NCBI GenBank assembly: GCA_001751225.1
Contig: MAXT01000288.1
Coordinates: 1-17,676 of the forward strand
Length of the DNA: 17,676 nucleotides
Direction of reading: 5' to 3'
From: Desulfuromonadales bacterium C00003107
GTDB taxonomy: Bacteria > Desulfobacterota > Desulfuromonadia > Desulfuromonadales > Syntrophotaleaceae
Made by a program: the position numbers and the translations under genes. The notes beneath the pieces are model-generated. The model saw only the letters and a list, made by a program, of their open reading frames with translations. It did not search any database and was not told the DNA's origin. Below are positions 1,837 through 16,361 of the stretch, piece after piece (positions within the stretch are counted from its first letter, which is position 1; each line of letters starts with the position of its first letter).

Positions 1837-2406
1837 CTAAAAAAATCGTCCCACCTGCAAAACCACAGAATTAATTCCCCGGTTGTCATGATGAAGTCCG
1901 CCATTGGACACATGATGTAACCGCAAGGCAGAAAACCAGGGAGCTCCATCGCTCCAATCCATCTCCATCCCGACCCCAGCCTGCGGGTTAAAGTTAACCC
2001 GCAATCCTTGCCCTTCCACCTGAAAATCAGTGTAGATGATACCGATCCCTGCTTCCAGGTAGGGGCGCAGATGAGCAGAAGTAAAATGGTCCAAAAAGTA
2101 AAGGGCAAGGATGTTGGCCGATGCCACGGTACTCATGTGTGTTCCGGTGGTGGAACCGACATGCCCTTCAACTTTGAAGCGAAGCGGATCGGGTGCCCGG
2201 TGATGCCAGATAGCCTCGTAGTCATAAAGTGCAGCAGCAGATAAAAGTATGAAATCGACATCTGCGCTTGGATCGTAGGTTATGCCCAAGCTGCTTCCAA
2301 GGGAGTAGCGGGTTGCGACATTCCCGTCATCCGCCACCGCCAAACAGCGACCTGCAGCCAACAGAATCAAGCAGAGAAGTATTGCACTCCAAACTTGGTT
2401 TATCAA
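1837..2406 (-). CDS. PagL-like outer membrane beta-barrel (lipid A 3-O-deacylase / acyloxyacyl hydrolase family)
   Basis: The 189-residue product has a hydrophobic N-terminal signal segment (about 4-24). Alternating beta-strand-like stretches follow, such as LRPYLEAGIGIIYTDFQVEG (113-132), ending in an aromatic C-terminus (VGRFF) as in outer membrane barrels. The segment LRLHHVSNGGLHHDNRGIN (161-179) fits the PagL His-x-Ser-Asn signature, with His165 and Ser167 as candidate catalytic residues. By simple spacing, the third PagL residue (Glu, 12 after the Ser) falls on Asn179, so activity is not assured. PagL removes a 3-linked acyl chain from lipid A in the outer membrane. Its start codon overlaps the chain-length-factor stop by four bases (2403-2406), so it is cotranslated with the synthase genes. 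It could instead be a structural barrel of the same fold. Confidence 0.65.
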   Translation of the reverse strand: MINQVWSAILLCLILLAAGRCLAVADDGNVATRYSLGSSLGITYDPSADVDFILLSAAALYDYEAIWHHRAPDPLRFKVEGHVGSTTGTHMSTVASANILALYFLDHFTSAHLRPYLEAGIGIIYTDFQVEGQGLRVNFNPQAGVGMEMDWSDGAPWFSALRLHHVSNGGLHHDNRGINSVVLQVGRFF

Positions 2407-3500
2407 CCTCGCCCCTTGGTTACAGTCAGAAAACCATAACCGCCATTGTCATCCATTTTGAGACAACAAATATCTCGCCGACCTAGATCCTCAGCACCGA
2501 CAATTTGCCAGTCAGTCTCCCCGGCAACGTTACCCGGTGTGGCACAAAGGCGCCCATCGCGCATCGCCAGGGCGGCGGCGGCCAGGTCGAAGGCTTGCCC
2601 GACTGGCAAGCTACCGTACAGCGGCGCGTAGCTCGCGACCGAAGCCCCTTTGGGAACGAATTCTGGATATTTGGCGCTGCACTGAGGATGTCCGTCAGCT
2701 CCCAAAATATAAACTGTCTCCTTCGGAAGGATGGGGAGGCCTCCGGAGAGATGGCCAAGAGTCACCATATCAATGGCTCCATACCGGGATGCTGTATCCT
2801 CTCGGGACAAAACAAAAAAGGCCGCTCCCTCCCCGACCAGCGCCGTCTGTTTAGCGAGGTCAAAAGGCGCCATTTCCTCAGTTGACTCACTTCCCAAAAA
2901 CCGCTCCCAGCAGTAGCCAAGAACAGCGCTGTACTCATCCACCCCACCAAAAACGACATGATCGACGCGCCCTTCCTCAAGCCAAAGCTGGGCGGTCAAC
3001 AGTGCCGAAGAAACCGACATTTCAAACTGGCTTACTGTGAGGTTAGGGCCACCAATATTCAATTTAATGGCAACATGAGCGGCAGCGGCATTATGTACAG
3101 AATTGGAGAAATGAGTGGGAGAAGCGCAAGAGTCTCCATCATCTATTATCGAATCAAGAAAGGAGAAGGTGGTACGAAGGGCTCCATAACCACTAGCAAT
3201 CACGAGGCCCACCCGCTCTGGAATTGCCCCGAGCATTCCCGCATCTTGCAAAGCCAGATGGCTACCAAGCAGAGCTAACCGGGAAAAGTGATCGATACGT
3301 CGCAGTGCTCGTTTGTTTAGGAACTCCTCCAGAGGGCCGGTATCTGCAAGAAACGCTGACCGCAACACGCTTTCGTTACCAGGAACAGGCGTCACTTGCA
3401 TGGTCGAAGGGACCCCGGAAACAAGGGCTCGGTCAAAGGCATCCAAACCGCAGCCAAAACCGCCCACTACCCCAACCCCTCGAATTGAAAGCCTGGTCAT
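2403..3500 (-). CDS. beta-ketoacyl synthase-like chain length factor (ApeC-like)
   Basis: This 365-residue thiolase-fold protein has the ketosynthase layout but has lost the catalytic residues. Aligned by eye with its neighbour, the nucleophile Cys position reads LTVSQFEMSVSSAL, putting Glu160 where Cys is expected. HGTGT is replaced by a GADGHPQC-like stretch near 267-274, and the second His motif (GHTLGAAG) reads GSLPVGQAF near 296-304. This resembles chain length factors of type II polyketide synthases and of APE clusters, which pair with an active ketosynthase and shape the tunnel that sets chain length. It directly follows that ketosynthase gene with an ATGA overlap (3497-3500), which supports a heterodimer. 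A decarboxylase-type ketosynthase (Cys replaced by Gln or Glu) is the main alternative. Confidence 0.82.
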   Translation of the reverse strand: MTRLSIRGVGVVGGFGCGLDAFDRALVSGVPSTMQVTPVPGNESVLRSAFLADTGPLEEFLNKRALRRIDHFSRLALLGSHLALQDAGMLGAIPERVGLVIASGYGALRTTFSFLDSIIDDGDSCASPTHFSNSVHNAAAAHVAIKLNIGGPNLTVSQFEMSVSSALLTAQLWLEEGRVDHVVFGGVDEYSAVLGYCWERFLGSESTEEMAPFDLAKQTALVGEGAAFFVLSREDTASRYGAIDMVTLGHLSGGLPILPKETVYILGADGHPQCSAKYPEFVPKGASVASYAPLYGSLPVGQAFDLAAAALAMRDGRLCATPGNVAGETDWQIVGAEDLGRRDICCLKMDDNGGYGFLTVTKGRG

Positions 3501-4699
3501 TGCAGACCTTCCTTTCCGAAAATCACTACAGCATTGTTCCCACCGAACGCTAGAGACTGGGAAAGGGCCGCTCGACCTTCAATGGCCACCTCTTGAGAGA
3601 TGGGATTGATGGGAAGTGCGGGATCCGGTTCGGCAAAACCGGCACTGGTGGGGATACGCCCCGCTTCCATACAAGCGATGGTGAATGCTGCCTCAATCGC
3701 TCCGGCGGCCCCCAAGGTGTGGCCCGTAAAGCCCTTAGTCGACAGAAAAGGCGTTCGAGGAAGCACTTTATCGAGCACCTGGCTCTCCACCCGGTCGTTG
3801 TCAGGAGTTCCCGTACCGTGGGCGTTAACGAAGGCGATATCCTCCGGTCGGCAATCGGCAGTATTCATGGCCTCATCCAAAGCTCGTCTTAACCCCAACC
3901 CCTCGGGGCTTGGAGCCGTCAGGTGATAAGCATCGCAAGCGGAGCCATACCCCAAAAGATGGGAGCGTATTTTCGCTTTTCGCGCCTGCTGAGTTTTTTC
4001 CGATTCGAGAACCAGCATTCCAGCCCCTTCCCCGAGATTAAGGCCGCGCCGATTCAAATCAAAGGGCCTGACCGGCTTAGCGTCGGCGATCATCAAGGAG
4101 GCGAAGCCATTATAGGTAACTCGAGTAAGCTCGTCGGCGCCACCGGCCAGAGCCACATCGCACAGACCGTTTCGAACCCAAGAAGCTGCAAGGCCAAGAG
4201 CATCGGTCCCGGATGAACAGGCATTGACCACCGTCTGCACAGGTCCGGAAAGACCGAAATGACGCGCTACCGAGGCGGCAGGGTTACTACGTAAAAAACG
4301 CTCTATCGGGGTCATCTCCGGTCGCTTTCCACTGCGATAATCGCGGTAGAATTCCTCACTGTTCATAGCGCTGCCAACCGTGGTTCCGATACAGACCCCG
4401 ACCCGCAGCCCCCTCAGATTCTCAGGGTTCCAATCGGCATCATGGAGTGCTTCCAGGGCAGCGGCCAGGGCCAGACGCGAAGTCCTCAGCAACTGGCCGT
4501 CTTCAGGAAACTCCGATGGGAAAAACCCCTCGGGAACTTCAAAAACCGGATACCTAATGGCGTGTGCCGTTTCAAAGCTAGACGGAGGTGCAGGATGCCG
4601 CCTTTCTTTAAACAAACTCTCCATACAAGCCGCCAGGTTGGCACCGGCGGCGCATAGGCAACCGACTCCGGTAACGGCTACAGGAGACGGCCCGCTCAT
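3497..4699 (-). CDS. beta-ketoacyl-ACP synthase, active-site complete (FabF/ApeO-like)
   Basis: The 400-residue protein is a full-length condensing enzyme. The nucleophile is Cys161 in VVNACSSGTDAL, and the two catalytic histidines are His294 in NAHGTGTPDND and His327 in KGFTGHTLGAAGA. The late glycine motif FGGNNAV (385-391) is also present. It would catalyse decarboxylative Claisen condensation of malonyl-ACP onto the growing chain in the cytoplasm. It lies between the carrier protein gene (ATGA overlap at 4696-4699) and the chain-length-factor gene (ATGA overlap at 3497-3500), so the three form a minimal type II synthase. APE systems carry two or three such condensing proteins; only this one in the window has the full triad. 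Confidence 0.92.
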   Translation of the reverse strand: MSGPSPVAVTGVGCLCAAGANLAACMESLFKERRHPAPPSSFETAHAIRYPVFEVPEGFFPSEFPEDGQLLRTSRLALAAALEALHDADWNPENLRGLRVGVCIGTTVGSAMNSEEFYRDYRSGKRPEMTPIERFLRSNPAASVARHFGLSGPVQTVVNACSSGTDALGLAASWVRNGLCDVALAGGADELTRVTYNGFASLMIADAKPVRPFDLNRRGLNLGEGAGMLVLESEKTQQARKAKIRSHLLGYGSACDAYHLTAPSPEGLGLRRALDEAMNTADCRPEDIAFVNAHGTGTPDNDRVESQVLDKVLPRTPFLSTKGFTGHTLGAAGAIEAAFTIACMEAGRIPTSAGFAEPDPALPINPISQEVAIEGRAALSQSLAFGGNNAVVIFGKEGLQ

Positions 4700-4950
4700 C
4701 CCTGCAACCGCTCGTCGATGAACCCAGCCAGGGTTTCGATCGATTCGAAAGCCTCTCGACCCTCTTCCATGTCCTGGATTTCGATACCAAAATGCTTCTG
4801 GATTAAGACGACCAGCTCAACCGCATCGAGAGAATCGAGCCCTAGCCCTTCACCGAACAGAGGGGTGCTGTCCTCGATTTCCTCCGCTGTCATATCCTCC
4901 AGGTTGAGCTCTTCCACCAGTATCTTCTTGAGTTTTTCTTTGATCGCCAT
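4696..4950 (-). CDS. acyl carrier protein
   Basis: An 84-residue acidic helical protein with the phosphopantetheine attachment motif GLGLDSLDAVEL; Ser40 is the attachment site. It would carry the starter and polyene intermediates as thioesters. I chose the ATG at 4950 because AAGGAG (4960-4965) sits nine bases upstream. An upstream in-frame GTG at 4968 would add six residues but would begin inside that ribosome binding site. The stop overlaps the ketosynthase start by four bases. It is the only carrier protein visible, whereas APE clusters usually have two. Confidence 0.92.
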   Translation of the reverse strand: MAIKEKLKKILVEELNLEDMTAEEIEDSTPLFGEGLGLDSLDAVELVVLIQKHFGIEIQDMEEGREAFESIETLAGFIDERLQG

Positions 4951-4959
4951 CTCTCGTAA

Positions 4960-4965
4960 CTCCTT
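4960..4965 (-). promoter_or_regulatory. ribosome binding site of the acyl carrier protein gene
   Basis: On the minus strand the bases read AAGGAG, nine bases before the ATG at 4950. It decides the start in favour of the Met-Ala-Ile-Lys N-terminus over the longer GTG form. Confidence 0.75.
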
Positions 4966-4995
4966 CACTAAAATAGGGGGGCCTTAAAACCGACC

Positions 4996-5919
4996 TCACC
5001 CTTTATCATCGTTGTTCCACATATCGTAGAAGTTGAAAAACTGAAATGGGTTTTTTACCGTATATTCTTCCAGTAATCGGGTGAATAATTGAGCGTAGGG
5101 ACGATAAGCTTCTTTTGACCGACCAAGATCAGCAGGAACCCTGATCACCCCGGAGACCTCTAGCTCGTAACTCGACGGTCCAGTCTTCCGGCTAAAAAGC
5201 ACCGCAATCGGCGCACCGGTGGCCGACGCTATTTTGTAGGAGCTGAAGTTAACCTGCATCTCATCGCCTAGAAACCGGACGGAAACCGAACTCCGGTCGC
5301 TCCCCAGCATACGATCCCCCATTACCGAAAGAACTTCACCCTTTTTCAGCGCACCCATCATCTCAAGGGTTCCGCCGAGATACCCGCGGGGATCGATAAT
5401 ATGAAAGGGTGAACCAGCATCTGAGTGCTCAAAGAAGTGCCGGTCGATATCCCCCTCTTCTCGTTGAATCAGCAGATTCACCGGCGTTTCAAGGCAGCGT
5501 AAGGTGGCCATCGCCACCTGCCAACAGCCGACGTGAGACATCATGAGAATCAGTCCACGCCCTTCCCCGACCAGTTCGAGCAACTCCTCCCGCCCCTGCA
5601 AGCTGACGCTCAGGGCCTCCGGCCCCAAAATCCCCACCGCCGCACGGTCGATTAGCACTTTGCCCAGTTCCAGGCTCATCCGGTAGCTCTGCCACCAGCG
5701 CCGGACAGGCCCGCTGTCGGGAAAACGACGGCGAAGATAATATTCAGATTTTTTCCTTTGATCCGGACGCAGCAACATGTAGTAAAATATGATGAAATAG
5801 AGCACAAGGTAGGCAGCCCACCGCCCTCCCAAACGAATAAGAAGATAAAAAAATCGGTGCTGCCAGGCCGTACCGACGCTCCTGCTGCTCCATTGCCTCT
5901 CCCTCTTTTCGCTATCCAT
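4996..5919 (-). CDS. LpxL/HtrB-family lipid acyltransferase (ApeD-like)
   Basis: The product is about 307 residues with an N-terminal membrane segment near 38-53 (YLVLYFIIFYYMLL), then an acyltransferase domain of the lipid A biosynthesis acyltransferase type. The block GRGLILMMSHVGCWQVA holds His129 (ATG numbering) as the expected catalytic base. The HX4(D/E) acid position reads Gln (H-V-G-C-W-Q). MGDRM near 201-205 is the second conserved block of the family. It would act at the inner membrane, joining an acyl or aryl polyene chain to a lipid or sugar head group. ATG 5919 has AAAAGG nine bases upstream; a TTG at 5928 is an alternative start adding three residues. The gene overlaps the stop of the glycosyltransferase gene, and such pairs are usual in APE clusters. 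Confidence 0.82.
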   Translation of the reverse strand: MDSEKRERQWSSRSVGTAWQHRFFYLLIRLGGRWAAYLVLYFIIFYYMLLRPDQRKKSEYYLRRRFPDSGPVRRWWQSYRMSLELGKVLIDRAAVGILGPEALSVSLQGREELLELVGEGRGLILMMSHVGCWQVAMATLRCLETPVNLLIQREEGDIDRHFFEHSDAGSPFHIIDPRGYLGGTLEMMGALKKGEVLSVMGDRMLGSDRSSVSVRFLGDEMQVNFSSYKIASATGAPIAVLFSRKTGPSSYELEVSGVIRVPADLGRSKEAYRPYAQLFTRLLEEYTVKNPFQFFNFYDMWNNDDKG

Positions 5920-7081
5920 CGGAAACAACCTTTTCCTTCTTTACCAGCATCGCTGTCGCATAAATCCCTCCGCCGACCAACGCACCCAGAAGAGGACCGA
6001 TCAAAAGAGAACCTATCAGCCACTCATAGAGCCTCTCAAACCCCTGATGGCCAAGGGTTTGCCAGGACACCTCGGTAAGAAACTCGCCATGACGCATAAA
6101 GTAACCGGCCTCTATACAGAGCGCGGGCACTAAAGGCGGCATGCACAGCTGGCTCGTGCTAACTGCCGCCACCTTGTTGAGCCTAAAAAAACCGGCCGCG
6201 AAAAGGACCGCGATGGTATGGCAGGCGATTAGCGGTGCTGCCCCGAGGATTACTCCCAACGCTCCTGCTGCGGCCAATCGGCCCGGGGAAGTGTTTTCCG
6301 TAAGTAGGCAGCGGATCGACTCCATTGGGCGAAACAAGCTGACCTTAGGGCTCTTTTCTTCATGCACAATTTTACGGTGAGGCCAGGGCAGAATCGATCT
6401 CATAGTCAAATGAGTGTTGAGCAAAGTAAGCCGTAGGTTGTCTTTGACTTTGTCAAAGTGGGAGACCCGCTTTTCAGCTGGGGGATAATAGACTGAGATA
6501 TCCGCATCTCGCAGCGAAACCCCAGCCCAGGCTGCCTTAACCAGCACCTCTATCTCGAAAGAATAGCGAGTTTCCTTCAGTTTCAGCCCCTCCAGGACCG
6601 CCAGCGGGTAGGCCCTGAAGCCGCTCTGAGTGTCCTGCAGGCTGCGCCCGGTCTGCAGTCGCAACCAGAAGTTAGAAAACTTGCGCCCGAAGCGACTCGA
6701 CCCGGGAACGTTAGAGGTATCGAAATCCCTTTTCCCTACCACGATGGAGAAGGGTTCTTCCCTAAGTATCTTGAAAATCTGCTGCATATCGGCGGGATCG
6801 TGTTGACCATCGGCATCAATGGTGACTAGATGGGTCATCCCCATCCGAGCCGCCTCCCGGGCTGCAATCATGATCGCTGCCCCCTTGCCTTTATTGGTCT
6901 CCTCGCGCAGCACCTGCACCCCGAGCCCCTGCAGGGTGTCTGCTCCGCCATCGCTGCTGCCGTCGTCCACAACCAGCACCCTGTCGTGTAGCGCCAAGGC
7001 ACGTTGGGCAACCTCCCGCACCGTTGCCGCATGGTTGAAGAGAGGGATCACAATTAGGGTTTTATCAATATCAAAAGTCAT
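5912..7081 (-). CDS. GT2 glycosyltransferase with C-terminal DUF2062 membrane domain
   Basis: Residues 1-230 form a family 2 glycosyltransferase of the dolichol-phosphate-mannose-synthase kind: VLVVDDGSSDGG (35-46) for nucleotide binding, the metal motif DADGQHD (89-95), VGKRDF (115-120) and DTQSGFRAYP (150-159). Residues 250-380 are hydrophobic, with about three membrane segments (for example ALGVILGAAPLIACHTIAVL at 274-293) and match the DUF2062 type. This fusion is a regular companion of APE-type clusters and would transfer a sugar to a membrane lipid or polyene acceptor at the inner membrane face. The 43-bp gap to the upstream rSAM gene holds no strong ribosome binding site before ATG 7081. 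Donor sugar and acceptor cannot be read from the sequence. Confidence 0.85.
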   Translation of the reverse strand: MTFDIDKTLIVIPLFNHAATVREVAQRALALHDRVLVVDDGSSDGGADTLQGLGVQVLREETNKGKGAAIMIAAREAARMGMTHLVTIDADGQHDPADMQQIFKILREEPFSIVVGKRDFDTSNVPGSSRFGRKFSNFWLRLQTGRSLQDTQSGFRAYPLAVLEGLKLKETRYSFEIEVLVKAAWAGVSLRDADISVYYPPAEKRVSHFDKVKDNLRLTLLNTHLTMRSILPWPHRKIVHEEKSPKVSLFRPMESIRCLLTENTSPGRLAAAGALGVILGAAPLIACHTIAVLFAAGFFRLNKVAAVSTSQLCMPPLVPALCIEAGYFMRHGEFLTEVSWQTLGHQGFERLYEWLIGSLLIGPLLGALVGGGIYATAMLVKKEKVVSDG

Positions 7082-7124: not shown

Positions 7125-8612
7125 TCATAAGCGGCAATCGGAACGGACATCAGCATTACCGCCAGGATCGGCGATGCGCCGGCTGCCCCGGGCAAAACGA
7201 AGAAAGTCTCCGAGATTGAGAACAAAGCGCCGCCAGCTGTCGGGGGAACGCCACAACATGGCCAGATAACCAAGCAGGACCTGGGGTCGCATAAAGTGTC
7301 TCTTGTAAAACTCGGTGAAGAGCTTTTCCAACTGCTCGCGGTTCATCCCCTGGGGAATAAACTGAAAATGCATGCAGTCCATCTTTGCCCAATCCTCTTC
7401 AAACACCCCCTTGTCACGAATCGTTTGGTACAGGGGAGCCCCGGGAAAGGGAGTGAACTTGGCCAAGTTGAAATCGTCTATGGGCAGAGAAAAGACGTAT
7501 TCCATGCTGCGCCGGATGCTCGCTTCGCTTTCGCCGGGCAGTCCCATCATCAGCAGGCCCTTGGTTCGAATTCCGGCGCCCTTGATCATGCGCAACTTGG
7601 CTGCTAGCATCTCAAGATCGGCGTTCTGACGGTGCTGAGCCAGTAATTCCGGGTCTCCGGTCTCTATTCCCAAGCTCGCCATCCAACACCCTGCCCCCTT
7701 CATTTGCTGCAAAAGGTCTGGGTCGATATGCTCGGCCCTCACTGCGCAGTTAAAGGTCATCCCGAGGGGCTTATCTGACATTAAACGGCAGAAGGACTCA
7801 ACCCGGTCCCGGTTAAAAGTGAACTGGTCGTCGTAAAAATTGACATGACGGATACCAAAACGCTCTTTCAAATAACTCAGATGGGCGTAGAGGTATTCGG
7901 CGGAGTTATAGCGAAAGCTGCTTCGAAACACCGAACGGTCGCAGTAGCTGCAACTGTAAGGGCAACCACGACTGGAGATACAGCTGGTATTCGGTACCCT
8001 CGGATAGTTGAAAATCGGTAAACGATAGACATCAGGATAACCTGCCAACTTCTCGTAAGCCGGAAAAGGAAGGGAGTCGAGTACGATCCCCTTTTCCCGG
8101 TACCCGGAAAAAACAATCTCGTCATCGGGCTCCCGATAAACCAGCCCCGGAATAGAAACGCTTCCCTCCCCTTCAGCCATTATCAGCTCATGAAACGTCT
8201 CCTCCCCCTCCCCGGCCACGATAAAATCGACTACGGGAAAATCTCGCAGGATCTTTTCCTTGAGGGCAGAGACGTGGGGGCCGCCAAAAACCGTGCGGAT
8301 ACGGGGAAGCTCTTGCCGAGCCATGGTCGCCAAACGTACTCCATCGAGAAAACTGGAGGTAGTGCAACTGAACCCGATCATGGCCGGCCGCTCAGACCGC
8401 AGCAGGTCAAGAATTATCCGATCGCTTTGGGGATGGGCGTAACAATCGACGATATGGACCACGACCCCAAGTCGCTCCAGATAGGCGGCGATACTGGCCA
8501 GCCCAAGCGGTGGCATAATATTAGCCAGACGCGAAATATCTCGCCCCGCCGCATCGGCCTGGTAGCCAAGGGGATGAACCAGGAGTACCGTTTTTGCATT
8601 CAACACCGCCAT
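7125..8612 (-). CDS. B12-binding domain radical SAM protein 1 (BchE/class B-like)
   Basis: The 495-residue protein has an N-terminal cobalamin-binding Rossmann-type region (about 7-145) with MPPLGLASIAAYLE (33-46), VFGGPH (108-113) and VAGEGEETF (132-140), as in B12-rSAM proteins. The radical SAM core follows, with the 4Fe-4S motif SRGCPYSCSYC (Cys217, Cys221, Cys224), the GIETGD strand (315-320) and MGLPGESE (356-363). The family includes class B methyltransferases acting on unactivated carbons and the oxygen-independent cyclase BchE. It is third in transcription order of three rSAM genes, ten bases after the second. AAGGAG lies only three bases before ATG 8612, closer than usual. It presumably modifies the polyene product or its head group; the exact reaction is unknown. 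Confidence 0.88.
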   Translation of the reverse strand: MAVLNAKTVLLVHPLGYQADAAGRDISRLANIMPPLGLASIAAYLERLGVVVHIVDCYAHPQSDRIILDLLRSERPAMIGFSCTTSSFLDGVRLATMARQELPRIRTVFGGPHVSALKEKILRDFPVVDFIVAGEGEETFHELIMAEGEGSVSIPGLVYREPDDEIVFSGYREKGIVLDSLPFPAYEKLAGYPDVYRLPIFNYPRVPNTSCISSRGCPYSCSYCDRSVFRSSFRYNSAEYLYAHLSYLKERFGIRHVNFYDDQFTFNRDRVESFCRLMSDKPLGMTFNCAVRAEHIDPDLLQQMKGAGCWMASLGIETGDPELLAQHRQNADLEMLAAKLRMIKGAGIRTKGLLMMGLPGESEASIRRSMEYVFSLPIDDFNLAKFTPFPGAPLYQTIRDKGVFEEDWAKMDCMHFQFIPQGMNREQLEKLFTEFYKRHFMRPQVLLGYLAMLWRSPDSWRRFVLNLGDFLRFARGSRRIADPGGNADVRSDCRL

Positions 8613-8622
8613 CGACTCCTTA

Positions 8623-9984
8623 TCACACCATCACCTTTTGTGGGAAGGAGATCAATTTGTCCCAAAGCAGCCCGCGAAAACCGAAACGCTGCATGACGGC
8701 CAGCTTTTCCTGCCCCGCCGAAGGAGGAAATATCCGATCTCTCCTGCCCTGGAAGGCCTTGAAAATCATGGCGTTCATCGCCTCGGGGTCGACCTGAGGC
8801 GAGAAATAATAGGCTGGCTTCAACAGGGATGCTTCGGCATCAATCACTCCATCTTTTATCGCTTGGGAATGGAGTTCCGTGCCAGACAGAATCCGAATCC
8901 CGGAAAAAGCGAAGACCACCGCCGCCCCTAGTTGCTCTATGTTTCCCAGCCCCTCTTCCACCGTGGCCAAGGTCTCGCCAGGCCCTCCAAACATGCAAAA
9001 ATGAGCACAAGGAATCTCCGCTTCAAGACAGGCTTGATTGACCTTGAGCACCTCGGAAAAGGAGAATCCCTTCTTAATCCCCTGCAAGGTCGTATCGCAA
9101 GCCGCGTCGGTTCCAAGTTCCATGGCATAGAGCCCCGAACGTTTGAGCAGGGACAACTCTTCCCGGCCAAGCCCCTGGGGCCTGAAAAAGGCGCTCCAGT
9201 GGATGGATAAATCCCGACGGAGGAGTTCCTCGACTAATTCCAAATAAAGCCCTGCAGGGTCGTTGAAGATTGAATCGGTGAAAAACACCTTCTCAACCCC
9301 AAAATCTCGAATAGCCTGTTCGAGATCGTCGACGACATCTTTAGGCGGACGGGGACGAAACCGGTTACCTTCTAACGTTGGGTAAGTGCAGTAGGTACAG
9401 CGAAAAGGACAGCCACGCTTTGTCTGAAGGTTGAGCATGCCACTTTGAGCGAGGTAAAATTCGACCAGGTCCTGTTCAAAAAGGGGCGCCGCCATTTCGG
9501 CCCCGCAGAGACGGTCGGTGTGGCCTGAGAGAATCTGTGGCGAAGGGAGGCCAGAATTCAGCGCAGTCAACAATTGACATAGAACAGACTCCCCTTCACC
9601 TATTACGCCGTAATCGGCTTCGAAATAGGCTAGAATCTCCTCCGGCATAATTGAAAACCCAGGGCCGCCGAGAATAATCGGGGCCTGGGTGACTTCCCGG
9701 AGCAGCCCAATCTGTTCCCTGGCCTTAGCCAAATACCAAGCATTCTCCGAACTGAGGGAATCGACATTGTCGATGTTGCGCAAGGAGAAACAGACAAAAT
9801 CTGGCGCAAAATCCTCAAGCTCCGTCCGCAGTCTCTCTTCTGAGCAGCCGGAAGCGAGAAAGTCAAACTGCCGAACCTCATGCCCCTCTTGGGATAGGGC
9901 CGAAGCAATCACCGCCATCCCTAGAGGATAGACCGGGTAAGGCTCTAAGGTGGTATTGGCTGAAAGGATAAAGACCCGGCTCAT
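8623..9984 (-). CDS. B12-binding domain radical SAM protein 2
   Basis: This 453-residue protein has a cobalamin-binding region at about 1-140, with PLGMAVIASALSQEGHEV (20-37), APIILGGPGFS (101-111) and GVIGEGES (126-133). The radical SAM core has KRGCPFRCTYC with Cys192, Cys196 and Cys199. It also carries FRPRPPKDVVDDLE (209-222), typical of the core's first helix region, and MFGGPGET (331-338), the usual SAM-contacting turn. It belongs to the group often annotated as lipid-biosynthesis B12-binding/rSAM proteins. Its ATG overlaps the stop of rSAM 3 by four bases (9981-9984), so the enzymes are made together. No substrate can be assigned. Confidence 0.88.
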   Translation of the reverse strand: MSRVFILSANTTLEPYPVYPLGMAVIASALSQEGHEVRQFDFLASGCSEERLRTELEDFAPDFVCFSLRNIDNVDSLSSENAWYLAKAREQIGLLREVTQAPIILGGPGFSIMPEEILAYFEADYGVIGEGESVLCQLLTALNSGLPSPQILSGHTDRLCGAEMAAPLFEQDLVEFYLAQSGMLNLQTKRGCPFRCTYCTYPTLEGNRFRPRPPKDVVDDLEQAIRDFGVEKVFFTDSIFNDPAGLYLELVEELLRRDLSIHWSAFFRPQGLGREELSLLKRSGLYAMELGTDAACDTTLQGIKKGFSFSEVLKVNQACLEAEIPCAHFCMFGGPGETLATVEEGLGNIEQLGAAVVFAFSGIRILSGTELHSQAIKDGVIDAEASLLKPAYYFSPQVDPEAMNAMIFKAFQGRRDRIFPPSAGQEKLAVMQRFGFRGLLWDKLISFPQKVMV

Positions 9985-11246
9985 TGTTCAGTTTTCTTTT
10001 GTGGAAACGCGCGGCGTTTTTTCGGATTATAGCGACGGTAGGTGCCGTCTTCCATTTCCCTCCGGATAACCTGTTTAAACAGCTCTCCCATCTTCAGTTG
10101 ATGCCCCCCGTCGGCGTAAAAGGTATCCCAGGCGTAGTAGTAGAGTTCCTGAAGCTTTTCCGGGGTCATGTTACGGGGCTGGAAGACGACCTTATCGGCA
10201 CTATAATCTAGCCAATTGTTGCTCAGGATTCTGCCTTCGGCTTCGAGCTGCTGCCTAATGGGAGAGTGAGGAAAGGGCGTCAGGATGGTGAACTCGGCGA
10301 TGTCCAGTTCCACCTCCATCAGAAAGTCAACCAGCCGCTTGATGTCGTCCTCGGTTTGATCATCGGTGCCGAGGATAATGGTCCCTTCGACGCCGATACC
10401 ATGATCCTTGAAACGGCGGATGCGGTCGCGAATCACATCCGAGGTATCGAAGACGGCCTGGTATACGTACCAGGCACCGGCATCAGCAGCCAGCTTGAGA
10501 ACTTTTTCATCATCAAGGATCGGGTGGGAGACCCACTTTTTTTTCAAAGGCGCCATGGCAGTAAAGAGATCGATCAGCCATTCACGGTCCTGAGCCAGAG
10601 AGTTGTCGACGATGAACAGGCGGTTATTCTGAATCGCCTCCATCTCTTCGATGACCTTATCGATGGGGCGGGGTCGGAATTTTTTGCCGCCGAGGAAACC
10701 GGTACAGCAGGGAAAACAGTCAAATTTGCAGCCCCGCGAGGCATGCACCAGGTCGAGCATCTGGACTCCGCGATAATTGTAGATATCGCGGTTAAGGATC
10801 TCCCTGCGGGCAGTTCCCACCAAGTCGAGAGATGGCGGGTTATCCATGTAGTCGTAAACTTTTTTCAGCTGACCTTTTTGAAAATCATCGATCACTGCGC
10901 CAAAACGCCCTTCCGCTTCGCCTAGAAATATCGAATCGGCATGCTCGGAGACCTCTTCGGCATGAAGCATGGTGGCGATGCCACCGAAAATAACCGGTAT
11001 ACCGCGTTGGCGAAATGCTTTGGCGACCTCAAAGGCGCGAGGCAACTGGCAGCTGAGCATGGTAGAGATACCCACTAGGTCAGCCGAATCATCGAAATCG
11101 ATAGGCTCCAGGTTTTCGTCAGTAAATACCAAATCAACCTCGGCCGGAACCGTAGCGGCAAAGACAGCTGGCCCGTGCGGGGGAAGATGGAATTCCGTCT
11201 GACGATCGAGTTTGGGCCAGCGCGGGTAAACAAGTTTCATTTTCAT
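9981..11246 (-). CDS. B12-binding domain radical SAM protein 3
   Basis: The 421-residue product is first in transcription order of the rSAM trio. It has a degenerate cobalamin-binding region (about 1-120; DLVGISTMLSCQLPRA and VIFGGIATMLHAEEV), without the PP-LG opening of the others. The radical SAM motif is ASRGCKFDCFPC (Cys173, Cys177, Cys180), followed by KKFRPRPIDKVIEEMEA and later ILGTDDQTEDD in place of the usual 'G.PGET'. The FRPRP-DKV block is shared with rSAM 2 but not rSAM 1. I placed the start at ATG 11246 because GGAG (11255-11258) lies eight bases upstream; the frame stays open to 11297, but that 17-residue extension shows no family similarity. The C-terminus is rich in Lys and Arg. 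Reaction unknown. Confidence 0.85.
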   Translation of the reverse strand: MKMKLVYPRWPKLDRQTEFHLPPHGPAVFAATVPAEVDLVFTDENLEPIDFDDSADLVGISTMLSCQLPRAFEVAKAFRQRGIPVIFGGIATMLHAEEVSEHADSIFLGEAEGRFGAVIDDFQKGQLKKVYDYMDNPPSLDLVGTARREILNRDIYNYRGVQMLDLVHASRGCKFDCFPCCTGFLGGKKFRPRPIDKVIEEMEAIQNNRLFIVDNSLAQDREWLIDLFTAMAPLKKKWVSHPILDDEKVLKLAADAGAWYVYQAVFDTSDVIRDRIRRFKDHGIGVEGTIILGTDDQTEDDIKRLVDFLMEVELDIAEFTILTPFPHSPIRQQLEAEGRILSNNWLDYSADKVVFQPRNMTPEKLQELYYYAWDTFYADGGHQLKMGELFKQVIRREMEDGTYRRYNPKKRRAFPQKKTEQ

Positions 11247-11254
11247 CACAATCA

Positions 11255-11258
11255 CTCC
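11255..11258 (-). promoter_or_regulatory. ribosome binding site of the third B12-rSAM gene
   Basis: The minus strand reads GGAG eight bases before ATG 11246. It supports that start over the upstream in-frame codon at 11297. Confidence 0.65.
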
Positions 11259-11318
11259 ACATGTACAGGCCATCACGGGGGGTGCATAAATTCTCACTAC
11301 CCCAAAACACCTTATGCC

Positions 11319-11328
11319 TACTTAAGTA
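11319..11328. other. 10-bp perfect palindrome in the leader of the rSAM block
   Basis: The bases tacttaagta are self-complementary and lie between the candidate promoter (11358-11385) and the rSAM 3 start. A dimeric regulator could bind here, but a 10-bp AT-rich palindrome can occur by chance. Confidence 0.2.
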
Positions 11329-11357
11329 AATCGACCACCGCTGCTAAGATCGGAAGT

Positions 11358-11385: not shown

Positions 11386-11386
11386 G

Positions 11387-11848
11387 CTAAACTAATTGTC
11401 CCGACTTCCAACGATCACAGAATTCCCGATAAAATGGCGGTGCTACCAAAAGAAAGTCATTCTCCTTGTCCATCATCATCTGTACCGTATAGCCGCTTGT
11501 GGTTACTTCTCCGGCCCCATTGCGCAGGATGAACTCAATATTGATGCGTGCCGCTTCACTCCAGTGCAGAATTCCCTCGATAGTGAAAGGGTCTTCGAAG
11601 CAAAGGGGCCGATGATAATCGATATGCATTTTTTTAATCGGCGTAATGACCTCCGCACGATATAAATCCATATAGCCGATGCCGAAACGATTGCCAAGGG
11701 TCACCCTGGCGTCCTCAAAATAGCCTGGATAACGACCATGCCAGACAATACCGAGGGGATCGACTTCCTCAAACCGAACCACTCGGGATACAGTGACCCG
11801 AAGCGGCTGAGGTTGACCGGGCTGAGTGGGGAAATAGGGCCTTTTCAT
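11387..11848 (-). CDS. hotdog-fold acyl-CoA/acyl-ACP thioesterase (4HBT/YbgC-like)
   Basis: The 153-residue protein carries the 4-hydroxybenzoyl-CoA thioesterase signature: VRFEEVDPLGIVWHGRYPGY (24-43). Asp30 is at the catalytic position and is followed by G-I-V-W-H, then FEDAR. HIDYHRPLCFED (75-86) is the next family block. It would hydrolyse a thioester, either releasing the finished polyene or clearing stalled chains; APE clusters normally contain one such enzyme. Start ATG 11848 is supported by AGGAGG (11856-11861) seven bases upstream and by the ATGA overlap with the dehydratase stop (11845-11848). The frame is open to 11956, but that extension merely overlaps the dehydratase gene. It is the last gene before the 140-bp break. 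Confidence 0.85.
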   Translation of the reverse strand: MKRPYFPTQPGQPQPLRVTVSRVVRFEEVDPLGIVWHGRYPGYFEDARVTLGNRFGIGYMDLYRAEVITPIKKMHIDYHRPLCFEDPFTIEGILHWSEAARINIEFILRNGAGEVTTSGYTVQMMMDKENDFLLVAPPFYREFCDRWKSGQLV

Positions 11849-12231
11849 TTCGCACCCTCCTGGCGCTGCAACCGCAGTGTAAACGAGGCAGCTACCTTCT
11901 CCTGAAGCATCAACTTTACCCGATAAGAATGCCCGTCTATACCAGCACAGGGACAAATGTTGACGTCAATTTCCTGGTCCGGTCCTAGTGGCAGAAGAAA
12001 CTTGGCCCTTTCGACAACCTGGAGCTTCAAGGGAGCACCAACGCAGCCCTCTATCAACGACTGGGCAATCAGAATCTGCACAATTGCCGGCACAATCGGA
12101 AATCCCGGGAAGTGCCCGGAAAAACCTATAAATTCTTCACCGAAGCTGAATTTCCGCTCTGCAGAGTGGTCCTCACCGACAACAATGGGAGTCAGGGCTG
12201 CCCTCTCGATGGATTTCATCAAATCATTCAT
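11845..12231 (-). CDS. FabA/FabZ-fold 3-hydroxyacyl-ACP dehydratase subunit (ApeI-like), acidic residue missing
   Basis: The 128-residue hotdog protein has the dehydratase signature GFSGHFPGFPIVPAIVQI (36-53), with His40 as the catalytic histidine of FabA/FabZ. In those enzymes a Glu or Asp follows 14 residues after the His; here that position is Leu54 (PAIVQILIAQ), and the usual Pro-Gly is Pro-Ala. It would dehydrate 3-hydroxyacyl-ACP to form the polyene double bonds, probably only with a partner that supplies the acid. The ApeP-like dehydratase at 15903-16361 is the obvious partner. Its ATG overlaps the lipoprotein stop by eight bases (12224-12231) and its stop overlaps the thioesterase start by four. 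Confidence 0.8.
   Translation of the reverse strand: MNDLMKSIERAALTPIVVGEDHSAERKFSFGEEFIGFSGHFPGFPIVPAIVQILIAQSLIEGCVGAPLKLQVVERAKFLLPLGPDQEIDVNICPCAGIDGHSYRVKLMLQEKVAASFTLRLQRQEGAK
11856..11861 (-). promoter_or_regulatory. ribosome binding site of the thioesterase gene
   Basis: A full AGGAGG on the minus strand, seven bases before ATG 11848. It lies inside the dehydratase coding region and fixes the thioesterase start. Confidence 0.8.
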
Positions 12232-12898
12232 CGATTCTCTTCACCTCTTCCTGCCACAGGGTCAAACGATAGCCGGCAATACGGTCATCGAGTACAATCC
12301 CCCGCGGATAAAGTATTGTCTCTGCTGTTTGATACTCAAAGTATCTGGCCATCCAGTCTTCCTGATCTCCATCCACCTCGGTAGCCAACAACTGCGAACC
12401 GTTGCCACCAAAGGTGAATCGGATTTCTCTGGAAGGGTTGGAGCGCGTAAGTTGGCAACGACTGGCTGTTAAACGCAGCGTTTCACTGCCATCAGGGCGA
12501 GGGGTCAGAAACACCCTGCGCACCGAGGCAGCCACCGCCTCAGTAAAGTGTGGAATTTTGGCTATGTCGGGTAACAGGTAGTGTTGCTGCTCCCCGATCT
12601 GGGTGACCTCGAGATCAAATAGTTTGACCCCCAGGTCGTTCAAAGCCACCAACCTCACCTGGCCTTGAGTCAAATCAAGGCGCATCAGACCAGCCATGGG
12701 CACGCGGGCGCCGCGGAACTCGAACAGCACCGTCTGCCGCAACTGAAAAACCCCCTGCTGAGCTGTCCAGACCGAAGTTGCCAACTGGGTTGCTGTCACA
12801 TCCGAGCGCACAGCCACCGTATCCGGCATTACAAAAGGGACCCCACTGCAAGCCGTCAGGGCCAGTAGCAGACTAAGGATGACACACTGTTTTTTCAT
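12224..12898 (-). CDS. DUF3261-type lipoprotein (ApeN-like)
   Basis: The 224-residue product begins with a lipoprotein signal peptide: MKKQ, a hydrophobic stretch, and the lipobox LTAC with Cys17 as the lipidated residue. Ser at +2 (no Asp) suggests outer membrane sorting. The rest is mostly beta-strand-like (for example LRLDLTQGQVRLVALNDLG near 72-90) and resembles lipoproteins of the DUF3261 family found in APE clusters beside an MMPL exporter and a LolA-like protein. It would help deliver or anchor the polyene lipid in the outer membrane, much as LolB receives cargo from LolA; that role is inferred. The start overlaps the exporter stop by four bases (12895-12898). Confidence 0.8.
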   Translation of the reverse strand: MKKQCVILSLLLALTACSGVPFVMPDTVAVRSDVTATQLATSVWTAQQGVFQLRQTVLFEFRGARVPMAGLMRLDLTQGQVRLVALNDLGVKLFDLEVTQIGEQQHYLLPDIAKIPHFTEAVAASVRRVFLTPRPDGSETLRLTASRCQLTRSNPSREIRFTFGGNGSQLLATEVDGDQEDWMARYFEYQTAETILYPRGIVLDDRIAGYRLTLWQEEVKRIDE

Positions 12899-15267
12899 GT
12901 ATCCTCGCCGCGGTAAAGAGCTGGGACGACCAGCAGCGCAGCCGGAATGGCGGCGCCGATCCCCAGTAACACAGTTACGCCAATAGAATGCAAAGCGGGA
13001 TGGTGAGCCAGCACCAGAGCACCAAATCCAGCCAGAGTGGTCAGACCAGAAACCAACACCGCCTTGTCGGTGGCTCCACTGTGCCCCTCGGCAGACTTGC
13101 AGACCATGAAAATCCCGTAATCTACCCCCAACCCAATAACCAGGATACAGGCGATAATGTTGAATAGATTAAATTCCAAACCGAGGGTCCCCATGCAACC
13201 GAACATCACTATCAGTCCGGTGCCGACCGGGACCAACGCCGCTAAAACTTTCCCCACCCGTCGGAAAAGCAGCAGAAGCAGCAGGACCACAACTACCGAG
13301 GCCGAAAGGATAAAGCGGAAGAAATCGTGACTGATAGCAGCACTGATCTCGCGCCGGAAACGGCCCTGAGAAACCAACTGAACCGTCCCTTGCAGCTGAC
13401 TCTCGACCAGATCAGCCAATTCGGGTCGATCGGGCACCAGAGTCAACACCTCGGCTGAGGTTCCCTCACCGAGAACCAGTGAATCAACAAGATTGCCTAG
13501 TCCGGCCTGCCTTAGTCCCTGCAGAGTCACCGGCTGAGCAGGAGCGTTCAAGGATTTAAAAAAGGCAGAAAAAGCCACCTCGCTAAAACCGAGAGCTGCA
13601 GATTCACGGCGCAGGTCAGCGAGTATACGCTGCCCCTGGGCTCCTTGCCAAAAACTCAGCCAGCGTTCGCGATTGGCCTGTTGCACCTCAGTCGAGGGTA
13701 GCAAAGAAGCGATACTGATCATCGGCTGGTCAGGCTGCTCTTTTTGAAGCAGAGCAAAGAGTTGCTCATTGGCTACTAGCGCCTGTTCAAGATTTTCGCC
13801 CCTGGCCCATATCATGGCCTGATCTCGAAAGTCTCCCCAGTTCTGGCGCAGATTCTGCTCCGCAGCGGCCAACTCGGGCGGTACCAAGCTCATGCGCCTG
13901 AGATCCCCGTTAAATTCCAACCCCATAGACTGCCAACCACAACCGGCCAACAACAACAGCCAGATGCCAAGCACCAGACGCCGCCGATGCCGTATTCTTG
14001 ACAGCCAACGGCTAGACGATGCCCCCTGCTCTGGCCCAACCGCTGGTATCAGGTGGGGCAGAACCAATAGCGACAAAAGCAGGGCGGCGCCAATTCCGGC
14101 AATGGAAAAAACCGCCAACTGCCGCTGTCCCGGCAGGTCGGAGAAAAGCAGGACGGCAAAGCCGGCCATCGTAGTCAGACCACCAAACAATATGGGCCGG
14201 GCCAACTCACCAACGATAGCCTCAGGCGCGGCCCCACCTCGGCGCAAGGCAAAGTATACGTGCAATCCAAAATCTACGGTAATCCCAAGCAGTACCGCTC
14301 CAAAACCTAGGGTAACGGCGGAGACCGGCGAAAAAAACCAGGATACGGCGACGGCACTGATGCAAACAACCGCGATGGGTAACAAAAAAACAAACCCCGC
14401 CCGCGGACTGCGCAAAAAGCAAAAGAACAGCGCCAGCAGAGCCAACATCGATCCAGTCAGAATGCGCCACAAGTCCTCCTGAATCGCTTGGGCGTTAGCC
14501 AGGGTATATCGATGCCCGGCGACCAGGGTGGCACTGATATTGTCGGGCAAGGTTTTATCCACCGCTTCAGCAAAGCTCGCCAGCAGGGTTTCAGCGCCCG
14601 CCGAATCGGTCATCGGAATGGGGGTCTCTGCTAGTAGCAGAGCACTTTTTCCCTCCGCGCTGACAAAGTGGTTATCGACCAACCGCATCTGCGGAATCAT
14701 ATTGATATAACGTAACTTTTTCAGCCCAAACTGATAAATAGACAAAGGGTCGCGGCGAATCAGTCCCTTAAGGGCCCAGCCTTCTGGAGCAAATAGTTGC
14801 TCATAATTTTCCTGCAGTCGCTGCCGAACCCCGCCCTTATCATAATCACTGGCCATGGCCTCTAGGTCTTTGGCATCGAGAATGCTCGGAAACGCATCTT
14901 GGAGCCAGTTGAGCAAACGTCCCTGCATTTGGCTCTCAGGACCAGTCACCACATTCGCAAAGAGTGCCGGGTCGAGAGCAGCAGCCAGTCGGTCGACGGC
15001 CGCCACAAGCACAGCGCTGCCCCCTTCCCCATCGGTTTCGAGGCTTATTACCAGCTTGCGGGCAAAGGGCGCACGCTGTAAAAGAGCGAAATCTCCTGCC
15101 ACCCGGCTGCCACGATCGGGTAGCATCGCCTCGATGTTTTCCTCAAGGCGGATCCCTGTAAAGGCGATTATGCTGAGTAGAATCAGAACCGAGGTCACCC
15201 AGTACAATAGCCGTCGGCGGCTGGCAAAAAACCGGTATGCCGTTGCGGTGTACTCTGAAAGGCTCAT
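12895..15267 (-). CDS. MMPL/RND-family exporter (ApeM-like)
   Basis: The 790-residue inner membrane protein has the two-fold RND layout. One segment near 20-39 is followed by a periplasmic domain (about 40-265) and five segments up to about 408. The second half repeats this: a segment at 431-448, a periplasmic domain (about 449-650) and five segments from 651 to the end. The paired motifs GITVDFG (328-334) and GLGVDYG (712-718) hold the Asp residues typical of MMPL proton relay segments, and GGLTTMAGF (362-370) is echoed by SGLTTLAGF (740-748). It would extract or flip the polyene lipid from the inner membrane using the proton gradient. It follows the LolA-like gene by six bases and overlaps the lipoprotein gene, which supports an export unit. 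Confidence 0.9.
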   Translation of the reverse strand: MSLSEYTATAYRFFASRRRLLYWVTSVLILLSIIAFTGIRLEENIEAMLPDRGSRVAGDFALLQRAPFARKLVISLETDGEGGSAVLVAAVDRLAAALDPALFANVVTGPESQMQGRLLNWLQDAFPSILDAKDLEAMASDYDKGGVRQRLQENYEQLFAPEGWALKGLIRRDPLSIYQFGLKKLRYINMIPQMRLVDNHFVSAEGKSALLLAETPIPMTDSAGAETLLASFAEAVDKTLPDNISATLVAGHRYTLANAQAIQEDLWRILTGSMLALLALFFCFLRSPRAGFVFLLPIAVVCISAVAVSWFFSPVSAVTLGFGAVLLGITVDFGLHVYFALRRGGAAPEAIVGELARPILFGGLTTMAGFAVLLFSDLPGQRQLAVFSIAGIGAALLLSLLVLPHLIPAVGPEQGASSSRWLSRIRHRRRLVLGIWLLLLAGCGWQSMGLEFNGDLRRMSLVPPELAAAEQNLRQNWGDFRDQAMIWARGENLEQALVANEQLFALLQKEQPDQPMISIASLLPSTEVQQANRERWLSFWQGAQGQRILADLRRESAALGFSEVAFSAFFKSLNAPAQPVTLQGLRQAGLGNLVDSLVLGEGTSAEVLTLVPDRPELADLVESQLQGTVQLVSQGRFRREISAAISHDFFRFILSASVVVVLLLLLLFRRVGKVLAALVPVGTGLIVMFGCMGTLGLEFNLFNIIACILVIGLGVDYGIFMVCKSAEGHSGATDKAVLVSGLTTLAGFGALVLAHHPALHSIGVTVLLGIGAAIPAALLVVPALYRGEDT

Positions 15268-15273
15268 AGGCAG

Positions 15274-15906
15274 CTAAAAAAGATCCTCTGCCAAAGGCTG
15301 GTTGATAAGCACATTCTCAAACCGTAGCCGGGTGTAGTCTCCGTCAGCCTCATGCACTTCCACCATCTGCACATGACGACCCCCAGGTGCAAATTGAATT
15401 TTTAAATAATCGAGAAACCCAGCGGTTTCAAAAAGAGGATCAAGCCTGAGCCGCACCGGACCTTGCGCCTCTACGACAATGTGATACTTCTGGCGCAACC
15501 AATCAAAATCGGCACCGGCACAGGCCAGTAATTGTTCGGCAACGATTTTCATCACCGGTTCACGATCAATATCAAAGTTTTCACTTCGACCGGTGCGCTG
15601 ATGCCAACGGTGTCCCTCATTGCCTTTTAATACGAACCCGGTAACAACGGGCTGGGTCAACTCCCAACGCAATGAGCCAGGGTTTTTGAAATAAAAGCGT
15701 CCGGAAGAAAGCATGGCATCCTGAAACACAGCCAAGTATTTTTCCTGGGTAAAATCACTAGCGATGGTTTCGATTCCGGCTGAAAGCTGTTCGAGGCGCT
15801 CCAGAACCTTAGCATCCTGCTCTGAAACCCCAGCCCACGCACCCACAGGCAACCACAGCTGAGCAAAGAAAACAAAGATGCCTAGAGTTTGCAAAAGGCC
15901 TTTCAT
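15274..15906 (-). CDS. LolA-like periplasmic lipid carrier (ApeL-like)
   Basis: The 210-residue protein has a classic signal peptide (1-25, cleavage expected after AWA). The mature part shows LolA features: ETIASDFTQEKYLAVFQDAM (46-65), GRFYFKNPGSLRWELTQP (69-86) and a strand-rich C-terminal half. LolA proteins shuttle acylated cargo across the periplasm; the version in APE clusters probably carries the polyene lipid from the MMPL exporter to the outer membrane. Its ATG overlaps the stop of the dehydratase by four bases (15903-15906). It is unlikely to be the housekeeping LolA, given its companions. Confidence 0.85.
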   Translation of the reverse strand: MKGLLQTLGIFVFFAQLWLPVGAWAGVSEQDAKVLERLEQLSAGIETIASDFTQEKYLAVFQDAMLSSGRFYFKNPGSLRWELTQPVVTGFVLKGNEGHRWHQRTGRSENFDIDREPVMKIVAEQLLACAGADFDWLRQKYHIVVEAQGPVRLRLDPLFETAGFLDYLKIQFAPGGRHVQMVEVHEADGDYTRLRFENVLINQPLAEDLF

Positions 15907-16361
15907 GCCTTCTCCGGTGTTACTTCACCCTGCGGGATCCACAGTTTGAGCTTCCCGGCGGCCAATGGTTGTTGCCCAAGAAAGACCTCACCTTCAACCA
16001 CTACAAACCTTTCCACGGCTGCGATAGGGCGAATACGGATAGACAAGCAATCCCCCACATGGGCAGTCCCTTCCATTACCACCTTACTTATCCCAACCAG
16101 AAAACCCTGCCCTACCGGCTTCCCAGCCAAGCGGTCTGCATAGCCCTGAACAGCGGCAAAGGCCTGGGCCAACATTTCCACCAAGGCCACCTCGCTCAAT
16201 TGTCCGTCCCCATCCAGTAGGGGATTGGCGGCATCGATCACAGCTTCGACCGTAGCCTCCTCACCCTCGTGATATTCGACAAGACGATCAATCTGGCGCA
16301 TGGGAAGGCGATGCGGGATCAGGCCCTCGGCCGCCATTGGCAGTTTGAATTCGTTCAACAT
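15903..16361 (-). CDS. hotdog 3-hydroxyacyl-ACP dehydratase subunit (ApeP-like), histidine missing
   Basis: The 152-residue protein opens with LIPHRLPMRQIDRLVEY (14-30), the usual start of FabZ/ApeP-like dehydratases ('lpH..pm...D'). The active-site region reads NPLLDGDGQLSEVALVEMLAQ (46-66). Glu62 occupies the catalytic acid position, but no 'GHFPG' histidine precedes it; that stretch is DGDG. It therefore carries the half of the FabZ dyad absent from the ApeI-like protein at 11845-12231. It would act with that partner on 3-hydroxyacyl-ACP. A GGGGAG lies four bases before ATG 16361, and the gene begins 24 bp after the ammonia-lyase stop. Confidence 0.8.
   Translation of the reverse strand: MLNEFKLPMAAEGLIPHRLPMRQIDRLVEYHEGEEATVEAVIDAANPLLDGDGQLSEVALVEMLAQAFAAVQGYADRLAGKPVGQGFLVGISKVVMEGTAHVGDCLSIRIRPIAAVERFVVVEGEVFLGQQPLAAGKLKLWIPQGEVTPEKA

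Follow-up and report, generated by a model that had tools for sequence, protein, structure and literature searches.

What three consecutive radical S-adenosylmethionine (SAM) genes do in an operon that otherwise resembles those for aryl polyenes (APEs) is the question raised by contig MAXT01000288.1 of Desulfuromonadales bacterium C00003107. This contig (C288; G, L and C numbers denote genomes, loci and contigs) was analysed over its full 17,676 nucleotides, here called the window, and belongs to a draft genome of 2.53 Mb, with completeness at 86.8% and contamination at 7.3%. An original prediction, made from the DNA letters, had described the genes at 7125-11246, each with a cobalamin (B12)-binding-like region, as a unit that radically tailors the head group or chain of an aryl-polyene-type lipid in an anaerobe, possibly a pigment class not yet described. 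We find all three on the minus strand, with their cysteines as predicted, and name them rS3, rS2 and rS1 in operon order. They form a linked pair, rS3-rS2, and a separable rS1, and look independent of the lyase and ligase of the operon. Our leading reading, which we hold tentatively and somewhat short of even confidence, is that the operon makes an anaerobic outer-membrane polyene lipid and that two radical SAM modules tailor the chain or anchor of this product.

Three distinct radical SAM proteins

The CxxxCxxC cluster motif is invariant in the homologue alignments of rS1, rS2 and rS3 alike. An N-terminal B12-binding domain (PF02310, cut-off 32.1 bits) is clear in rS1 and rS2 (87.5 and 66.7 bits); rS3 scores 27.4 bits, just below the cut-off, and its close relatives carry the domain in a precomputed table. 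The region predicted for all three is firm in two of them. The predicted fold of rS3 is nearest that of AprD4, with a shortened loop, and matches the cobalamin-binding radical SAM class over its full length, though MiaB and RimO match it as well. AprD4 itself is not known to use cobalamin.

With 692.3 bits against a cut-off of 360, rS2 lies inside the family TIGR04072 (rSAM_ladder_B12), and rS1 (89.2) and rS3 (47.4) lie outside it. The best-scoring characterised relatives of the trio are TsrM, BzaD, BchE, HpnJ and AprD4, which have the same overall architecture but unrelated substrates, and the scores fall far below the NCBIfam cut-offs: rS2 reaches 139.4 of 500 bits for TsrM and 208.3 of 450 for BzaD, and rS1 reaches 178.8 of 481 for BchE, 173.7 of 577.6 for HpnJ and 127 bits for AprD4. 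For rS2, TsrM stands foremost, since the known structure nearest to its predicted one is that of this methyltransferase.

The three are distinct proteins. In a tree of 42 sequences, rS1 (13 of 13 tips, support 0.815) and rS2 (11 of 11, 0.92) form clades, as does rS3, whose ten tips are joined by one Geobacter paralogue (0.981). Local matches of rS2 are 29% identical to rS3 and 20% to rS1. An origin of the trio by tandem duplication of a single gene is rejected on the strength of this low identity and the separate clades.

Two further groups of related genes were seen. Ten loci outside such operons (L065-L074) hold a sister family of TIGR04072 scoring 265-325 bits; their neighbours include no other cluster gene except one 26% rS3 match, and the two loci scanned both fall below the TIGR04072 cut-off. 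One Geobacter-type locus has an extra rS3-like gene directly after rS3 (L089:4169-5338).

A linked pair and a separable gene

Among the 108 genomes of the class that were searched (E up to 1e-60 for rS3 and up to 1e-90 for rS1), rS3 occurs in 54, rS1 in 57 and rS2 in 53, the last count excluding TIGR04072 matches of 265-325 bits (ten relatives) and ten genomes with only 205-235 bit matches. All three families are present in 51 genomes, none in 50, and one or two in 7: rS1 alone in G110, G129 and G134, rS3 with rS1 in G106 and G118 (the latter fragmented), rS3 with rS2 in G075, and rS1 with rS2 in G136. A divergent, Geobacter-type set makes up 29 of the 51 trios, with rS3 and rS2 about 33-40% and rS1 about 48-52% identical; there the order is rS3, thioesterase, rS2, and rS1 lies elsewhere.

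The pair shares a contig in 51 of the 52 genomes that have both genes, always on the same strand and at most 6 kb apart in 50; rS2 and rS1 share one in 36 of 52, within 100 bases in 19; and a tight trio, on one strand with gaps of up to 100 bases, is found in 18, all of these being counts over related genomes and so not independent. The original prediction had named a lack of conserved linkage as evidence that would speak against it, and what we find is conserved linkage. It had also named relatives that lack the trio and make the same product; that case is found in part, as relatives that have the lyase cluster with rS1 only.

The closest named relatives of the window are Desulfuromonadaceae and Desulfuromonadales bacterium metagenome-assembled genomes (MAGs), with rS2 91-92% identical, and an 85% identical rS3 is listed for Geoalkalibacter halelectricus. 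Among the proteins compared over 26 tight-trio loci from other genera, conservation is highest for rS3 (median identity 79%), followed by the lyase, HAL (75, 14 loci), rS1 and the acyl carrier protein (ACP; both 70) and rS2 (59). Farther away, 15 of 101 genomes from the class of the Nitrospirae MAG G005 hold an rS3 of at least 59% identity, one of them in two pieces. An rS2 scan of genome contigs returned 16 loci, none of them anammox-named; of the 12 searched genomes behind them, 8 have a nearly full-length rS1 of at least 47% identity and 2 more have fragments only.

An apparently optional aryl module

The lyase is of the 4-methylideneimidazole-5-one (MIO) type, and a full-length relative falls below both HutH cut-offs (491 of 524 and 473 of 539). 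Among solved structures, this relative scores highest with tyrosine aminomutase (319 bits); 3kdy and 3kdz, named histidine ammonia-lyase, align almost identically (319 and 317), and other histidine ammonia-lyases reach up to 293. Given these scores, that top match and the coumarate-type ligase in the operon, a plain histidine-degrading role is not favoured.

Of the 28 window-type tight-trio loci, 15 carry HAL and 5 lack it, while in 8 it is not visible. Searches of the whole genomes behind the five HAL-less trios (G003, G011, G059, G080 and G090) turned up at most a paralogue of 36-37% identity. A phenylacetyl-CoA-ligase-like (PaaK-like) gene, found in 22 loci, follows the same division: it occurs in 10 of the 15 tight-trio loci with HAL and 0 of the 5 without, and the whole genomes of G080 and G003 hold no close match. 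Of the HAL loci without it, L010 has a coumarate-type ligase, and L048, L057, L059 and L097 begin too close to HAL for the ligase to be judged. Lyase and ligase thus look like an optional aryl module, of which the trio is independent. G044 has the operon with HAL and G080 the operon without it; we take these genomes to be Desulfuromonas versatilis and Geopsychrobacter electrodiphilus, presumably both cultured isolates.

The variants bear on whether the trio stands in for the ordinary APE methyltransferase and methylates the aromatic head group, which we regard as unlikely. The closest families of rS2, BzaD and the tryptophan C2-methyltransferase TsrM, act on aromatic carbons, and no ordinary (class I) SAM methyltransferase was found among the window's 17 operon genes, which is also why we call the operon aryl-polyene-like and do not assign it to the class, although this enzyme of the E. 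coli list may not be a defining one. Such a domain is found in 3 of 3 loci of the one genus (G110, G129, G134) that has a HAL cluster with rS1 and without rS2 and rS3. There, however, it is fused to a polysaccharide deacetylase (L080:1997-3478, L081 and L082), which points to the anchor; this methyltransferase part is in no other locus searched, and the fusion may be a single event. Against ring methylation stand the five trio operons without lyase and aryl ligase, which make the lyase-derived ring probably not the trio's target, and G084 (Geobacter-type), G005 and G007 (the two Nitrospirota genomes searched), which keep rS2 and rS3 and show no HAL match. Of the originally predicted targets, head group or chain, the HAL-derived aryl head group therefore appears unlikely, and the chain is retained.

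Chain or anchor as the probable site of tailoring

A modified anchor is the alternative we rate highest among those considered, though still as unlikely: the pair would act on a glycan or lipid A-like anchor, and rS1 would work with a PagL-like deacylase. The pair accompanies the family 2 glycosyltransferase (GT2) and LpxL genes in the window, in the Nitrospirota, where it adjoins them and rS1 is not beside it, and in Geobacter types. In 10 of the 61 rS1 loci (L083, L084, L085, L087, L091, L109, L110, L112, L113 and L117) the gene directly next to rS1 is PagL-like, and in all of these but L091 rS1 lies apart from rS2; a PagL match lies somewhere in the examined stretch in 33 of the 61; polysaccharide deacetylases are present in several cluster types. 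Yet the rS1-only genus retains GT2 and LpxL without rS2 or rS3, and 28 of the 61 rS1 loci lack PagL in the stretch examined, some stretches being short.

In the reading that we favour, with either chain or anchor tailored, the MIO lyase would, in the window's lineage, work with the coumarate-type ligase to supply an aryl-acrylate starter. The ketosynthase (KS) and its chain-length-factor (CLF) partner, with reductase and dehydratases, would build the chain on ACP, gene content giving no sign of an enoyl reductase. GT2, LpxL and PlsC would attach the acyl chain to a lipid or glycolipid anchor, and LolA, MMPL and DUF3261 would export the product, by analogy with the E. coli system. Tailoring would fall to rS3-rS2, which travel together, and to rS1, which stands beside a PagL-like protein in some relatives; judging from the natural variants, their targets are most likely the polyene chain or the lipid anchor and not the lyase-derived ring. 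As best guesses, rS2, with its TsrM-like fold, could methylate an sp2 carbon, rS1 could carry out a BchE/HpnJ-like oxidation or ring closure, and rS3, with its AprD4-like fold and shortened loop, could be the partner of rS2.

Several points weigh against this reading. TsrM acts on an aromatic carbon, and ring methylation would fit its likeness to rS2 equally well. The trio without HAL is still compatible with another aromatic starter in those genomes, and in Nitrospirota loci L017, L019 and L020, where no HAL is seen, a PaaK-like ligase is retained. Nor do the three families always occur together, 7 of the 58 genomes with any family holding only one or two. Cobalamin binding by rS3 may be doubtful, with its Pfam score below the cut-off, AprD4 its nearest fold, and MiaB and RimO almost equal. 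A methylase role for rS2 fits badly if TIGR04072 serves ladderane synthesis, since ladderanes are not known to carry methyl branches. More generally, the trio is far from any characterised enzyme, similarity gives neither substrate nor reaction type, and a shared fold is no proof of function.

Relation to ladderane, APE and flexirubin clusters

Clusters of this kind have been in print since 2009. Rattray et al. (2009; PMC2649909) described type II fatty acid synthesis (FASII) clusters of K. stuttgartiensis and D. psychrophila in which radical SAM genes stand with phytoene-desaturase-like ones, and similar, ladderane-like clusters of Geobacter and Pelobacter carbinolicus. The ladderane link drawn in the original prediction is thereby borne out, as it is by the membership of rS2 in TIGR04072. 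Those candidate ladderane clusters share with the window a number of radical SAM enzymes (among them a B12-binding one), Cys-less FabF paralogues and a glycosyltransferase, and share with its relatives phytoene-desaturase-like and phenylacetyl-CoA-ligase-like genes. The window differs in adding the MIO lyase, a 4-coumarate-type ligase and the aryl-polyene export set, and in lacking the PaaK-like ligase and the ketosynthases KSc and KSd, the anammox side of the comparison being known from published gene lists.

That the trio makes fused carbocycles from a polyene, as proposed for anammox ladderanes, is nonetheless very unlikely in our view. It would agree with the family of rS2, the resemblance of rS1 to ring-forming BchE, the CrtD/carotenoid-isomerase-like oxidoreductase and extra ketosynthases in a relative's operon, and the Cys-less partners in relatives, the last three being gene kinds also listed for K. 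stuttgartiensis (PMC2649909, PMC4790861). However, Desulfotalea, with a syntenic cluster, made polyunsaturated C31 hydrocarbons (C31:8 and C31:9 in D. psychrophila) and no ladderanes in the account of PMC2649909, and the E. coli expression of K. stuttgartiensis genes described in Javidpour et al. (2016; PMC4790861) gave none, although most proteins were insoluble. Anammox genes, moreover, were compared through published lists and not sequences. The nearness of the rS2 fold to a methyltransferase led us to lower our estimate for cyclisation slightly and to raise that for ring methylation by a little. A 2026 preprint (PMC13142503) places ladderane synthase among non-methylating cobalamin radical SAM enzymes; the TsrM-like predicted fold does not favour that grouping for the family of rS2.

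The E. coli ape cluster, as listed in Table 1 of PMC8253772, shares with the window KS genes, ACP, two dehydratases (both below cut-off in the window), thioesterase, LolA, an RND (resistance-nodulation-division) transporter, DUF3261, acyltransferase, glycosyltransferase and acyl ligase. ApeB, the methyltransferase on that list, is of the ordinary SAM type, and the list has no radical SAM trio, in line with the original prediction. The window, in contrast, has the trio, the MIO lyase and PagL, no detected ApeB-type methyltransferase, and a glycosyltransferase fused to DUF2062. Flexirubin clusters likewise start with a MIO lyase, and their LolA2 and, in a relative, FlxB (FabG) are the nearest NCBIfam models, both below cut-off; they differ in that the window has the radical SAM trio and, as far as the listed matches of its genes show, no gene for dialkylresorcinol formation.

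The kind of cluster is thus already known, and the window adds a variant to it. New here are the apparently aryl-primed form, the way in which the trio divides into modules, and the variants found in nature; no description of a radical SAM trio in a Desulfuromonadales aryl-polyene operon was found among the titles and abstract openings searched in the literature. For the radical SAM enzymes in clusters of ladderane type, we are not aware of any demonstrated reaction. With TIGR04072 in a compact operon and some relatives cultured, the action of such enzymes on a lipid becomes testable, and natural controls exist in trios with and without the aryl module and in rS1-only clusters. Some clusters called ladderane outside anammox bacteria (for instance in PMC9902471) may possibly be polyene-lipid clusters. 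A more speculative idea, which we think improbable, is that rS3-rS2 and rS1 are the tailoring core of undescribed anaerobic branched or carbocyclised aryl-polyene outer-membrane lipids, with an ancestral ACP-polyene enzyme pair common to the ladderane pathway. If this were true, the aryl-primed Desulfuromonadales form would be the missing cultivable relative for solving a first ladderane-type radical reaction, and the likeness of rS2 to TsrM in fold would mean that a methylation takes the place of the expected cyclisation.

The operon and its changes in the window's genus

Seventeen genes (Table 1), all on the minus strand, make up the operon, which extends from the contig edge at 17675 down to about 533. 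As predicted, it is of aryl-polyene type: it carries a KS with a Cys-less partner, ACP and thioesterase, as in aryl polyene and flexirubin clusters, and the LolA, MMPL and DUF3261 genes of its export set all exceed their Pfam cut-offs. The anaerobic host is supported by the kinship of the lineage.

Table 1. Genes of the operon in the window, in order from the contig edge (scores in bits)
Feature	Position	Strand	Evidence and remarks
MIO-type aromatic amino-acid ammonia-lyase (HAL)	16386..17675	-	5' end truncated by contig edge; 98% to L010; PF00221 540.7 on full-length relative
FabZ-like hotdog dehydratase	15903..16361	-	FabZ 33.4, below cut-off 113; place conserved in relatives
LolA-like carrier	15274..15906	-	PF03548 56.3; flexirubin LolA2 90 of 125
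MMPL/RND exporter	12895..15267	-	PF03176 66.2
DUF3261 protein (ApeN-like)	12224..12898	-	PF11659 27.9, cut-off 22.3
ApeI-like hotdog dehydratase	11845..12231	-	ApeI-like 18.2, below cut-off 28.5
4HBT thioesterase	11387..11956	-	PF13279 55.2; start probably nearer 11845 (relatives' matches span ~152 residues)
rS3, radical SAM protein, B12-binding-like domain, short-loop form	9981..11246	-	
rS2, B12-binding radical SAM protein, TIGR04072 (rSAM_ladder_B12)	8623..9984	-	
rS1, B12-binding radical SAM protein, nearest BchE/HpnJ/AprD4	7125..8612	-	
Glycosyltransferase 2 fused to DUF2062	5912..7081	-	PF00535 72.3, PF09835 41.7
LpxL-like acyltransferase	4996..5928	-	PF03279 41
Acyl carrier protein	4696..4968	-	PF00550 44.4
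Ketosynthase, Cys-His-His intact	3497..4699	-	PF00109 131; active-site inspection
CLF-like ketosynthase partner without active-site Cys	2403..3500	-	PF00109 62.7; Cys position changed
PagL-like outer-membrane lipid deacylase	1837..2406	-	PF09411 71.3
AMP ligase, 4-coumarate-CoA-ligase type	533..1708	-	TIGR02372 244.5, below cut-off 334.7

The full order, upstream genes included, is given by the same-genus genome G013 (99% complete; locus L010): FabG, KS, CrtD/carotenoid-isomerase-like oxidoreductase, KS, ACP, PlsC, MIO lyase, dehydratase, LolA, MMPL, DUF3261, dehydratase, thioesterase, rS3, rS2, rS1, GT2-DUF2062, LpxL-like, ACP, KS, CLF, PagL and AMP ligase. The window stops inside HAL; in its own genome (G000), KS, ACP, PlsC and the lyase start lie on contig C280 (L120), where the window's first 40 bases on the minus strand recur 353 bases before the contig end, in an overlap that is not letter-identical. 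Relative L064 has FabG, the ketoreductase, upstream, together with a phytoene-desaturase-like gene (Amino_oxidase 66.4 bits; CrtD 79 of 549.7).

The window's genus has lost an extra ketosynthase pair. KSc and KSd, usual between thioesterase and rS3 in relatives, are absent from the window, L009 and L010, with a 140-base gap left at their place in the window (11246-11387), and no close KSc was found in genomes G000, G013 and G014 (best 37%). Six of the 28 tight-trio loci are listed without KSc, among them L009 and L010 of the window's genus and L051, which ends near rS3; L054 has a KSc piece at the locus edge. In L047 and L050 (G038 and G029) nothing else of the upstream half lies beside rS3 either, so that the operon is split there. 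A second change concerns the ligase: the 4-coumarate-ligase-like enzyme at the operon end, found among the other fetched loci only in L010 (E up to 1e-8), seems to replace the PaaK-like ligase, which in relatives stands upstream of the lyase; of that PaaK-like ligase the genus has only 29-33% paralogues.

An exact sigma-70 pattern search gave 0 matches. At 3-230 the window holds the end of a plus-strand gene, convergent to the operon, which resembles an open reading frame at L010:19727-20641 that is, by eye, an alpha/beta hydrolase.

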